Assembly (NCBI RefSeq): GCF_041081105.1
Contig: NZ_CP163528.1
Coordinates: forward strand, 1,488,001 to 1,552,000
Source: Promicromonospora sp. Populi
GTDB taxonomy: Bacteria; Actinomycetota; Actinomycetes; Actinomycetales; Cellulomonadaceae
DNA length: 64,000 nt
Reading direction: 5' to 3'
The notes under the pieces were generated by a model, which did not search any database, had not been told where the DNA came from, and worked only from the letters and a program-made list of their open reading frames with translations. Of this stretch, positions 60,785 to 64,000 are shown one piece after another (positions within the stretch are counted from its first letter, which is position 1; each line of letters opens with the position of its first letter). The translations under genes and the position numbers were made by a program.

Positions 60785-61705
60785 ATGACCACCACCGCCG
60801 AGCGGATCGCCGATCAGATCCGCGCCCGCATCCGGTCGGGCGAGCTCGCCGTTGGCGAGCCCGTCCCGTCCACGCGCCGCATCGTGGCCGACCACGGCGT
60901 CGCGATGGCGACGGCGAGCCGGGTCCTGGAGGCGCTGCGCCGCGACGGGCTCGTCGAGGTGCGCCGCGGGGTCGGCACGGTCGTCGCCGCGGGGGCCGCG
61001 AGCGCCGGTGGGGCCGCGAATGCCCCGACCGTCGACGACGTCGTGCGCCTGGCCATGGCGACCGCCGACGCCGAGGGGCTGGGCGGGCTGTCCGTGCGGC
61101 GGATCGCTACCGACCTGGGCATCCCCACGATGTCGCTCTACCGCTATGTGCGGGGCCGCGAGGAGCTGCTGACCCGCATGCTCGACACCGTGTACGCCGA
61201 GTCGCCGCTTCCCGATCCGCTGCCCGACGGCTGGCGGGCCCGCGCCGAGACCTGCGCCCGCACCCTGTGGGGCGCGTTCCAGCTCCACCCGTGGGCGGCG
61301 CACGTCATGTCGATGACGCGGCCGCAGGTGGTGCCGCACGGGCTGGCGCACACGGAGGCGATGCTGGGCGCGTTCGACGGGATCCCGGGCCGGCCCCTCG
61401 ACATCGACACCCGCATGCACCTGGCGGTCTCCGTCTTCCAGCTCGTGCGCGGCCTCGGCGTGAGCATCGAGCCCGCGGTGCTGGCCCGGCGGGACGACGG
61501 CCTGACCGACGAGGAGTGGATGGACCGGACCCTGCCCGACCTGAAGGCCGCCGCAGACCGGCGCAAGTTCCCGCACCTCGCCGTGGCGACGGCGACCGAG
61601 GTGGACCTCACCCTCGACTCGCTCTTCGAGTTCGGCCTGGCCCGCCTCCTGGACGGCTACGCGGCGTTCCTCGGCGACCAGAAGGGCCTGCCGCACGTCC
61701 GCTGA
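60785..61705 (+). CDS. Hybrid GntR-TetR transcriptional regulator
   Basis: A 306-residue protein carrying two DNA-binding modules. Residues 1-65 are a GntR winged helix (QIRARIRSGELAVGEPVPST, ATASRVLEALRRDGLV). A Gly/Ala linker joins a TetR helix-turn-helix (about 83-130, LSVRRIATDLGIPTMSLYRY) and a TetR_C-type ligand domain. GGGAG upstream of the ATG. Divergent from the monooxygenase. Confidence 0.9.
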   Translation: MTTTAERIADQIRARIRSGELAVGEPVPSTRRIVADHGVAMATASRVLEALRRDGLVEVRRGVGTVVAAGAASAGGAANAPTVDDVVRLAMATADAEGLGGLSVRRIATDLGIPTMSLYRYVRGREELLTRMLDTVYAESPLPDPLPDGWRARAETCARTLWGAFQLHPWAAHVMSMTRPQVVPHGLAHTEAMLGAFDGIPGRPLDIDTRMHLAVSVFQLVRGLGVSIEPAVLARRDDGLTDEEWMDRTLPDLKAAADRRKFPHLAVATATEVDLTLDSLFEFGLARLLDGYAAFLGDQKGLPHVR

Positions 61706-61723
61706 GCGGCGTACGGTCGGTGC

Positions 61724-62047
61724 ATGTGCCGAAACATCACCACGCTGCGCGGGCTCGAGCCCGCGGCCACCGACGAGGAGATCACCGCCGCGGCCCTGCA
61801 GTTCGTGCGCAAGGTCACGGGCGTGACAATGGTGAGCGACGCCACGCGCGAGCCGGTCGAGCGGGCCACCGCCGAGATCTCGGAGATCGTGACGCGCCTG
61901 CTCGACGCGCTGCCGGAGCGCCGTCAGCCGCCTAAGAACGTGCCGCCGCTGCGCCGACCTGAGGTGCAGGCGCGGATCGCGCAACGCATCAAGGACCGCG
62001 AGGAGCACGAGCGCATGCACGAGTTAGGCATCGCACACTCGCACTGA
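61724..62047 (+). CDS. DUF2277 protein
   Basis: A 107-residue protein beginning MCRNITTLRGLEPAATDEEI, the diagnostic start of DUF2277, and ending in a charged helix. Function unknown. Starts 18 bases after the regulator stop. A 16-base palindrome overlaps its stop codon and may terminate or regulate. Confidence 0.85.
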   Translation: MCRNITTLRGLEPAATDEEITAAALQFVRKVTGVTMVSDATREPVERATAEISEIVTRLLDALPERRQPPKNVPPLRRPEVQARIAQRIKDREEHERMHELGIAHSH

Positions 62048-62062
62048 GCGGCGCGCGCCGCT
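62047..62062. promoter_or_regulatory. 16-base palindrome AGCGGCGCGCGCCGCT
   Basis: A perfect palindrome between the DUF2277 stop and the -10 box of the cystathionine beta-synthase promoter. Position allows either termination of the upstream gene or repressor binding. Confidence 0.45.
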
Positions 62063-62067
62063 ACAGT
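62062..62067 (+). promoter_or_regulatory. -10 box TACAGT placing the start of transcription at the leader GTG
   Basis: TANNNT-type hexamer with seven bases to the GTG at 62075. In Actinobacteria this spacing is the usual layout of leaderless transcripts. No clear -35. Confidence 0.55.
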
Positions 62068-62074
62068 TGGGCAC

Positions 62075-62104
62075 GTGCTCGCACTCTCCTGTTGCTGTCG
62101 CTGA
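62075..62104 (+). CDS. Cysteine leader peptide (9 aa), predicted leaderless
   Basis: GTG CTC GCA CTC TCC TGT TGC TGT CGC TGA: Met-Leu-Ala-Leu-Ser-Cys-Cys-Cys-Arg. Too short for ordinary ORF calling. Three adjacent Cys codons (62090-62098) upstream of a cysteine-metabolism gene are the hallmark of amino-acid-responsive attenuation. Mycobacteria have comparable polycysteine leader ORFs. Distance from its stop to the cystathionine beta-synthase start is 68 bases. Confidence 0.7.
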   Translation: MLALSCCCR

Positions 62105-62165
62105 CTCCCCTCGTCGCAGGCCCGTCAGTCCTTCGCGCATACCGCGCGCCCAGAAACAGGAAGTG
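62082..62165 (+). promoter_or_regulatory. Predicted cysteine-responsive translational attenuator
   Basis: The leader ORF can pair with the Shine-Dalgarno region of the next gene: CACT (62082-62085) with AGTG (62162-62165), TCCTGTT (62087-62093) with AACAGGA (62155-62161), CTG (62095-62097) with CAG (62151-62153); one bulged C and one mismatch interrupt the helix. The strand within the leader contains the Cys codons. A ribosome waiting for Cys-tRNA would keep that strand open and free the ribosome-binding site; normal translation would let the helix form. Derived by hand; not folded computationally. Confidence 0.6.
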
Positions 62166-62172
62166 AAAACAG

Positions 62173-63540
62173 GTGCAGTACGCCAATTCTGTCGTTGAGC
62201 TTGTCGGCAACACGCCCCTCGTCCGGCTCCACCGGGTGACCGAGGGCGTGACCAGCGCGACCGTGCTCGTCAAGCTCGAGTACGTGAACCCGGGCGGCTC
62301 CTCGAAGGACCGCATAGCGGGCCGCATCATCGAGGCCGCCGAGCGCGAGGGCAAGCTCCTCCCGGGCGGCACCATCGTCGAGCCCACGTCGGGCAACACC
62401 GGCGTCGGCCTCGCCCTGGTCGCCCAGCAGCGGGGCTACCGCTGCGTATTCGTGCTGCCGGACAAGGTGGGCGAGGACAAGCGCAACGTCCTGACGGCGT
62501 ACGGCGCCGAGGTGGTGGTGACGCCCACCGCCGTCGCACCGGACAGCCCCGAGTCGTACTACTCGGTGAGCGACCGCCTGGTCCGTGAGATCCCCGGCGC
62601 CTTCAAGCCCGACCAGTACTCCAACCCCAACGGGCCGCGCTCGCACTACGAGACCACCGGCCCCGAGATCTGGCGGGACACCGAGGGCAAGGTGACGCAC
62701 TTCGTCGCCGGCGTCGGCACGGGCGGCACCATCACGGGCACCGGCCGCTACCTGCGCGAGATCTCCGGCGACCGGGTGCGGATCGTCGGCGCCGACCCCG
62801 AGGGGTCGGTCTACTCGGGCGGCACCGGCCGCCCGTACCTCGTCGAGGGCGTCGGCGAGGACTTCTGGCCCACCGCGTACGACCCGAGCGTGCCCCACGA
62901 GGTCATCGCGGTCAGCGACGCCGAGTCGTTCGCCATGACCCGGCGCCTGGCCCGCGAGGAGGGCATCCTCGTGGGCGGGTCGAGCGGCATGGCAGTCGTC
63001 GCAGCCCTGCGGGCCGCGCGCGACCTCGGTCCCGACGACGTGGTGGTGGTCCTGCTGCCCGACGGCGGCCGGGGTTACCTCGGCAAGATCTTCAACGACA
63101 CCTGGATGCGGTCCTACGGTTTCTCCCCCGCCATCGAGGACCACACCGTCGCCGACGTGCTGGCCGCCAAGGCGGACCGCACCCCGGCGCTGCTCTACGT
63201 GCACAAGACCGACACCGTGCGCGACGCGATCGACCGGATGACCCGCTCCGGCGTCTCCCAGCTGCTCGTGCTCACCGCGGAACCGCCAGTGGTGCTCGGC
63301 GAGATCGCGGGCGCGGTGCACGAGGACGAGCTGCTCGACGGCGTGTTCGCGGGCAAGGTGAACCTCTCCGACGAGGTGGGCGGGCTCATCGGCCGGTCCC
63401 TGTCGCTCGTCGGCGTCAACGAGCCCGTCGGGACGCTGCGCGCGGCGCTCGCCGGCGAGACAGCTCTGCTCGTGACCGACGGCGGCAAGGCGCTCGGCGT
63501 GGTCTCCCGCTCCGACCTGCTCGAATACCTCGCGGTCTGA
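62173..63540 (+). CDS. cbs: Cystathionine beta-synthase
   Basis: A PLP enzyme of 455 residues joining serine (or O-acetylserine) and homocysteine to cystathionine. PLP Lys45 in NPGGSSKDR, VEPTSGNTGVGLA, and the phosphate loop GVGTGGTITGTG. Two CBS domains fill the last about 130 residues (DTVRDAIDRMTRSGVSQLLV, EPVGTLRAALAGETALLV). Start GTG at 62173, with GGAAG in reach. Followed by the cystathionine gamma-synthase/lyase gene 34 bases on, so the pair would make cysteine from homocysteine (reverse transsulfuration). Confidence 0.93.
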   Translation: MQYANSVVELVGNTPLVRLHRVTEGVTSATVLVKLEYVNPGGSSKDRIAGRIIEAAEREGKLLPGGTIVEPTSGNTGVGLALVAQQRGYRCVFVLPDKVGEDKRNVLTAYGAEVVVTPTAVAPDSPESYYSVSDRLVREIPGAFKPDQYSNPNGPRSHYETTGPEIWRDTEGKVTHFVAGVGTGGTITGTGRYLREISGDRVRIVGADPEGSVYSGGTGRPYLVEGVGEDFWPTAYDPSVPHEVIAVSDAESFAMTRRLAREEGILVGGSSGMAVVAALRAARDLGPDDVVVVLLPDGGRGYLGKIFNDTWMRSYGFSPAIEDHTVADVLAAKADRTPALLYVHKTDTVRDAIDRMTRSGVSQLLVLTAEPPVVLGEIAGAVHEDELLDGVFAGKVNLSDEVGGLIGRSLSLVGVNEPVGTLRAALAGETALLVTDGGKALGVVSRSDLLEYLAV

Positions 63541-63574: not shown

Positions 63575-64000
63575 ATGAACGACGCACGACCGAGCCGGTT
63601 CGACACGCTCGCCATCCACGCGGGACAGCAGCCCGACCCCACCACCGGCGACGCGATCCCCGCGATCCACGTCACCTCCACCTACGCGCAGGACGGCATC
63701 GGGGGGCTGCGGGGCGGGTACGAGTACTCGCGCGGCGGCAACCCCACACGCACGTCGCTCGAGGAGCAGCTAGCCGCGATCGAGGGCGGCGCCCAGGGCA
63801 TCTCGTTCGCCTCGGGCCTGGCCGCGGAGGACGCCCTCCTGCGGGCGACGCTCGCGCCGGGCGACCACGTGCTCGTGCCGAACGACGTCTACGGCGGCAC
63901 GCACCGCCTGGTGCGCACCATCCACGGGAAGTCGGGCATCGAGCACACGACCGTCGACACCGCCGACCTCGACGCCGTGCGCGCGGCCGTGCGGCCCGAG
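63575..64000 (+). CDS. Cystathionine gamma-synthase/gamma-lyase (3' end outside window)
   Basis: The first 142 residues of a Cys/Met-metabolism PLP enzyme: FDTLAIHAGQQPDPTTGDAI, STYAQDGIGG, YEYSRGGNPTRTSLEEQLAA and FASGLAAEDALL are typical. The PLP lysine lies beyond the window. Downstream of cbs, so likely gamma-lyase activity in vivo even if the family name is synthase. GAGAGACG before the ATG. Confidence 0.9.
   Translation, partial: MNDARPSRFDTLAIHAGQQPDPTTGDAIPAIHVTSTYAQDGIGGLRGGYEYSRGGNPTRTSLEEQLAAIEGGAQGISFASGLAAEDALLRATLAPGDHVLVPNDVYGGTHRLVRTIHGKSGIEHTTVDTADLDAVRAAVRPE

Follow-up and report, generated by a model that had tools for sequence, protein, structure and literature searches.

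The cystathionine beta-synthase gene (cbs) of Promicromonospora sp. Populi is preceded by a nine-codon open reading frame whose run of three cysteine codons is placed opposite the cbs ribosome-binding site (RBS) in a predicted fold that is conserved in the genus. We consider it likely, on the strength of sequence comparison, that this element is a leaderless polycysteine short-ORF translation attenuator controlling a cbs-metB(cgl) operon. By analogy with mycobacteria, the leader is probably a switch that turns the cysteine-making operon on under cysteine shortage.

The leader and the operon behind it

As can be seen from Table 1, the window (the whole stretch of 64,000 nucleotides that was analysed) carries a -10-like box, seven bases, a GTG opening the ORF with three Cys codons and, 68 bases beyond its stop, the GTG of cbs, all in agreement with the original prediction. 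The box lies six bases ahead of the GTG in the other ten loci of the genus. A single codon separates the last Cys codon of the leader from its TGA. A search of 61950-62250 turned up no canonical sigma-70 promoter pair, and the 5' end is therefore placed by the conserved -10-like box and its distance from the GTG; the leader is predicted from these to be translated from the extreme 5' end of the mRNA. Both strands of the window were scanned for CysCys ORFs of at most 30 codons with TANNNT 5-8 bases ahead of the start, and this was the sole leaderless ORF of the kind.

Table 1. Features of the cbs leader region, in window coordinates.
Feature	Position	Strand	Basis and remarks
-10-like box TACAGT	62062..62067	+	sequence; TACAGT in 11/11 genus sequences
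Leader ORF VLALSCCCR*	62075..62104	+	translation; nine codons; GTG start at 62075
Putative sensor codons TGT TGC TGT (Cys-Cys-Cys)	62090..62098	+	identical in 11/11 genus loci
Helix P1, 5' arm, over the Cys codons	62082..62097	+	minimum free energy (MFE) fold; genus RNAalifold consensus
Helix P1, 3' arm, with Shine-Dalgarno AGGA (62158-62161)	62151..62165	+	MFE fold; AACAGGAAG invariant in 11/11 genus sequences
Helix P2 (62100-62105 x 62124-62129)	62100..62129	+	MFE fold, genus consensus; 5' arm takes in the leader stop codon
Helix P3, GC-rich hairpin	62134..62148	+	MFE fold, genus consensus
cbs, cystathionine beta-synthase, predicted controlled gene	62173..63540	+	NCBIfam TIGR01137, 592 bits (cut-off 510)
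Operon gene 2, cystathionine gamma-synthase/lyase family	63575..64000 (gene cut by window end)	+	NCBIfam NF005871, 620 bits (cut-off 513)

The cbs product scores above the NCBIfam cut-off as a TIGR01137 equivalog and, among named proteins, is closest to those of Promicromonospora thailandica (95%) and P. panici (92%). The gene that follows, cut by the end of the window, is complete in locus L171 (576-1745). Since it belongs to the cystathionine gamma-synthase/lyase family, the operon can encode both steps of reverse transsulfuration, and the leader thus precedes genes of cysteine metabolism. Directly upstream of the leader lies an ORF of 107 amino acids (61724-62047) without an NCBIfam match; the upstream stretches of relatives in the genus contain its C-terminal end, EHERMHELGIAHSH, little changed.

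Conservation of the leader

Conservation of the Cys codons in relatives was one of the tests that the original prediction had set for itself, and it was passed. The leader is present in all 11 genomes of the genus that have a full-length cbs, with 9 or 10 codons, the frame and stop kept, the cysteines always encoded by TGT TGC TGT, and the GTG always 6-7 bases past TACAGT. From G001 and G003, which complete the set of 13 genomes of the genus, the only matches were cysK-like, at about 47%.

We compared 107 of 110 actinobacterial cbs loci, leaving out L031 and L032, which duplicate L005 and L009, and L077, which has too little upstream DNA (96 bases). Of these 107, 27 have a leaderless ORF that carries CysCys close to its stop. 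Shuffled upstream regions gave an expectation of 0.005 per set when the -10-like box was required and 0.88 when it was not, against the real 27 either way. Although distances of 4-9 bases were permitted, the TANNNT box stood 6-7 bases ahead of the start in every one of the 27 leaders, which are predicted to be leaderless. They belong to Promicromonospora (11), Agromyces (4 of 5 loci), Leifsonia flava, Cryobacterium (two), Humibacter, Herbiconiux (two), Occultella (two), Naasia (one), a member of the Microbacteriaceae (L062) and two members of the order (L012 and L013). A looser, post hoc rule (two Cys in the last seven codons), set after inspecting 14 hand-picked loci without a CysCys leader, raised the count to 30 of 107 by adding Cryobacterium Y11 and two Naasia loci with C-x-C, and found nothing in 50 shuffled sets; by this rule 77 of the 107 loci are without such a leader. 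We also observed that 34 of the 107 cbs genes (L049, L063, L068, L081, L090 and 29 more) have TANNNT 5-8 bases before their own start, so that cbs itself looks leaderless there. The Cys leader and a TANNNT box before cbs itself occur together in none of the 107 loci, and 43 have neither.

The choice of Cys codon in the leaders is unusual. The 30 leaders use TGT 64 times and TGC 19 times (83 codons), as compared with one TGT and 28 TGC (29 codons) inside the 27 leader-bearing cbs genes; the Fisher p of 8e-13 for this difference is too small, as the rows share ancestry and one genus alone supplies 33 of the 83 leader codons. Genes of the window (26 ORFs chosen by third-position GC) have six TGT and 62 TGC among 68 Cys codons. 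As TGT dominates the leaders yet is rare in genes, a rare codon is kept in the leaders; it may be retained for pairing with the A-rich RBS or for slower reading.

Predicted pairing of the Cys codons with the cbs RBS

The helix of 14 base pairs that had been drawn by hand between the leader and the RBS is present, pair for pair, in the computed MFE fold of the 106 bases from the leader GTG (-35.2 kcal/mol), where it forms P1 and closes over two hairpins. Taken singly, the window fold is slightly beyond chance (z -1.42; 18 of 200 shuffles equally good). The duplex of the leader arm with the RBS gave p 0.084 against mono-shuffled RBSs and p 0.136 against RBSs from 80 leader-free loci. The Cys-codon/RBS pairs gave p 0.317 against dinucleotide-shuffled RBSs, a weak control because a short purine-rich stretch is hardly altered by such shuffling, and in the per-locus pairing test with the same shuffling native and control values were almost equal. 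It is the cross-genome comparison, that is, the conservation of the leader and the fold of the genus alignment, that puts the element above chance. The motif AACAGG occurs twice in the window sequence, at 62155-62160 (Shine-Dalgarno) and at 62168-62173 (running into the cbs GTG), and either copy could pair with CCUGUU of the leader.

RNAalifold, applied to an alignment of 11 Promicromonospora sequences, independently recovered all three helices: P1, joining the Cys codons to the RBS; P2, which surrounds the stop of the leader; and the GC hairpin P3. The consensus also pairs the leader start with the cbs start. The consensus fold had a z of -3.68 and was equalled by none of 300 column shuffles; this result speaks for the fold as a whole and not for P1 as such. 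Pairing is kept in 97.5% of pair cells, against 20-48% when the partner is slid. Covariation, proposed originally as a check on the Cys-codon/RBS helix, was sought in the genus and none was found in P1, where seven of the 12 pairs are constant and not one has a change in both partners, because both arms are nearly invariant. P3 is the only helix with two-sided changes that are kept as pairs (two pairs, four cells). For the structure as a whole, the percentage paired and the covariation score were reached by none of 500 shuffles, the two-sided pair count (2) by 121 of 500 and the pair-type count by all 500. The RBS arms of L009 and L008 are unbroken complements to the Cys codons, and that of the window has one mismatch.

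Beyond the genus, folding weakly supports a Cys-codon/RBS helix. In Leifsonia flava (L036), Agromyces (L035, L038 and L039) and Herbiconiux moechotypicola (L070), 5.5-7.9 of eight Cys-codon letters are expected to be paired, even though the RBS sequence of these loci differs from that of the genus. The Cys codons barely pair with the RBS in L012, L013, L033, L048 and L056 (0.9-2.9 letters), and the value is 0.0 in L037, L051, L061, L062, L073 and L087. These values vary with the length of cbs sequence folded; thus, L033 and L048 pair well in one fold and poorly in another. Humibacter (L056) was rejected as a case of such pairing, as its MFE structure joins the RBS to the start of the leader instead of to the Cys codons. 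Each of the duplex controls gave p < 0.05 at three of 16 loci outside the genus, and the dinucleotide-shuffled test did so at L036 only. Permutation of RBSs among loci gave p 0.042 over 20 rows, or 0.052 without L001.

How the leader may control cbs

The best-supported mechanism is stalling at low charged Cys-tRNA that would free the cbs RBS, which matches the mycobacterial reports. The transcript would begin at or beside the leader GTG, as we infer from the box, and ribosomes would initiate on this 5'-terminal codon and read the Cys codons right before the stop. With ample Cys-tRNA they would pass and leave, allowing the Cys-codon RNA to pair with the cbs Shine-Dalgarno sequence (P1 over P2 and P3), and cbs would be poorly translated as long as P1 is closed. 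When charged Cys-tRNA is scarce, a ribosome stalled at the Cys codons would mask the 5' arm and the Shine-Dalgarno sequence would stay open, so that cbs would be translated and reverse transsulfuration would yield more cysteine. The attenuator reading also gains from a similarly built polycysteine leader that stands before metYX, which feeds this route (see below). As the element is shorter than 100 bases, codon, pairing and starvation tests of this mechanism would be cheap.

The closest competitor, which we regard as unlikely, is transcription attenuation by Rho. With ample cysteine the ribosome would come off at the leader stop and the stretch 62105-62150 would recruit Rho, a step that a stalled ribosome would block. 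Rho was proposed in 2005 for actinobacterial cys and cbs leaders, according to the excerpted text of PMC1262725; mycobacterial work, on the other hand, is cited as translation attenuation (PMC9031893 and PMC13236596, both as excerpted). C is indeed abundant from the leader stop to the RBS, but in the genus this stretch is folded into the conserved P2 and P3, and the spacers there are short (61-70 bases). Room for Rho is given by long spacers, such as the 166 bases of Occultella, where the Cys codons do not pair with the RBS, or the 167 bases behind the metY leader of the window genome; long-spacer leaders may work differently. No terminator hairpin with a U-run occurs in 61950-62250, which is in keeping with translation attenuation as well as with Rho and led us to reject a classical intrinsic-terminator attenuator.

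It is improbable that the leader, if truly translated, serves for translational coupling or delivers ribosomes to cbs without sensing cysteine. The 68-base gap is long for coupling, and conservation, in several genera, centres on the terminal Cys codons of the ORF. The available part of PMC4633059 does, nevertheless, discuss leaderless short ORFs that deliver ribosomes to the gene behind them. Less credible still is a short three-Cys ORF that met a helix by chance: the window fold is unremarkable by itself, but the leader recurs at all 11 genus loci and at 27 of the 107 cbs loci, where 0.005 were expected, and chance is ruled out for the ORF. Another RNA device, e.g. a riboswitch or T-box, is equally hard to credit and was rejected, for although the 5' region is structured and the RBS sequestered, conservation falls on the letters of the ORF and of the RBS, and 61700-62400 has no Rfam match up to E 1.

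Relation to known leaders

The 2005 prediction of Cys-run leaders reportedly has Seliverstov as first author, and the 2020 study of Canestrari et al. is said to be the one in Mol. Microbiol. 114:93 on leaderless polycysteine short-ORF attenuators of mycobacteria.

That polycysteine leader ORFs stand before mycobacterial cysteine genes, as the original prediction stated, is described in the portions available of PMC9031893, PMC9094748 and PMC13236596. Its suggestion that a cbs leader of this kind may be undescribed holds only in part: by the excerpted text of PMC1262725, Cys-run leaders were predicted in 2005 before the cys operon of Mycobacterium and of Propionibacterium acnes and before cbs of Bifidobacterium longum, but that text gives no structure for the latter. 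The same excerpt sees no conserved hairpin fit to act as a terminator and puts forward Rho. In 2015, leaderless ORFs rich in Cys were noted upstream of cysteine genes of mycobacteria (PMC4633059, in part), and an attenuation mechanism in M. smegmatis was reported by Canestrari et al. 2020, as related in the excerpts of PMC9031893 and PMC13236596. Among the titles and abstract openings listed from one open-access library, none dealt with leaders of this kind in Promicromonospora or Microbacteriaceae, or with a leader before metY. Judged from sequence, then, the leader is of a type already known from mycobacteria, its lineage is new, and its cysteine response is predicted.

The likeness to the mycobacterial attenuators, as far as the excerpted sources describe them, extends to the run of Cys codons in a short ORF and the cysteine genes that come next and, by prediction, to the 5'-terminal place of that ORF and a pairing that would hide the next RBS. 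The present leaders differ from them in lineage (Promicromonospora and mostly Microbacteriaceae), in targets (cbs-metB and metYX, with a possible overlap with mycobacterial targets), in the compact three-helix fold conserved in the genus, and in that their cysteine response is a prediction. They share with the 2005 leaders, by the description of the B. longum leader in the PMC1262725 excerpt, a Cys run before an actinobacterial cbs; however, they come from other lineages and have a conserved fold that sets the Cys codons opposite the RBS. The LEU element before actinobacterial leuA, likened here by its description in the same excerpt, also pairs a run of regulatory codons with a Shine-Dalgarno box, but for leucine rather than cysteine and in a pseudoknot. 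The 2005 prediction of a cbs leader gains a concrete conserved structure, and ribosome-sensed cysteine control would be extended from mycobacteria to another actinobacterial lineage.

A second leader before metYX

The genome of the window has another leader of this build, in which TACGGT is followed, after six bases, by the 27-base ORF MTRRMCCC* (G000:C1:3190624-3190650, equal to L170:1025-1051). It ends 167 bases ahead of metY, which encodes a bifunctional O-acetylhomoserine/O-acetylserine sulfhydrylase and is followed by metX. A Met adjoins the Cys run, and similar sequence is kept downstream. With up to three mismatches allowed, the MTRRMCCC pattern was found in 10 of 13 genus genomes, with C-C-C in six and C-S-C in four. 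Of 30 metY loci, half (15, a raw count) carry a leaderless ORF that has two or more Cys close to the stop, namely nine of ten in the genus and six of 20 in other genera, four of these six ending in RMCC. The misses include L255 and L264, whose gene start lay elsewhere than assumed, so that these two were not a fair look. A further scan of the same genome, which covered all 61 TGYTGYTGY..TGA matches, 30 of 163 TGTTGT..TGA matches and 30 of 65 TGTTGT..TAG matches, revealed only the cbs and metY leaders in 329,867 bases (overlaps counted). No leaderless CysCys ORF was found in the stretches examined at PF01507 and cysE loci of this genome (L182-L186).

We see about even chances that the two leaderless Cys leaders constitute a ribosome-directed cysteine regulon of Micrococcales, in which the cbs switch would come from a Microbacteriaceae-like donor and rare TGT would be retained in the leaders through selection. 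If so, metYX (homocysteine supply) and cbs-metB (homocysteine to cysteine) would both be governed in this way outside mycobacteria, and the whole reverse-transsulfuration route would thus answer to charged Cys-tRNA.

Origin of cbs and its leader

A quick tree of Cbs (107 rows) places Promicromonospora inside a leader-rich group of Microbacteriaceae, with Agromyces and Leifsonia flava and then Cryobacterium (SH-aLRT 89 with Agromyces, 98-99 for wider groups). Eight loci from Promicromonospora's own family stand apart in the tree, and none of the eight has the leader. Forcing the genus and this family together was rejected (p-AU 1e-6, by a test picked after the tree was seen). The simplest reading of these sequences is that cbs was transferred together with its leader, and the attenuator thus seems to have moved between families along with its gene. 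The presence of the leader takes at least eight changes on the tree by the CysCys rule, or at least nine by the looser rule, and therefore losses or several gains also occurred. Two further loci of the tree, L092 and L091, labelled Vibrio cholerae and Sporosarcina, have cbs nested among Arthrobacter; their assemblies are probably mislabelled or contaminated.
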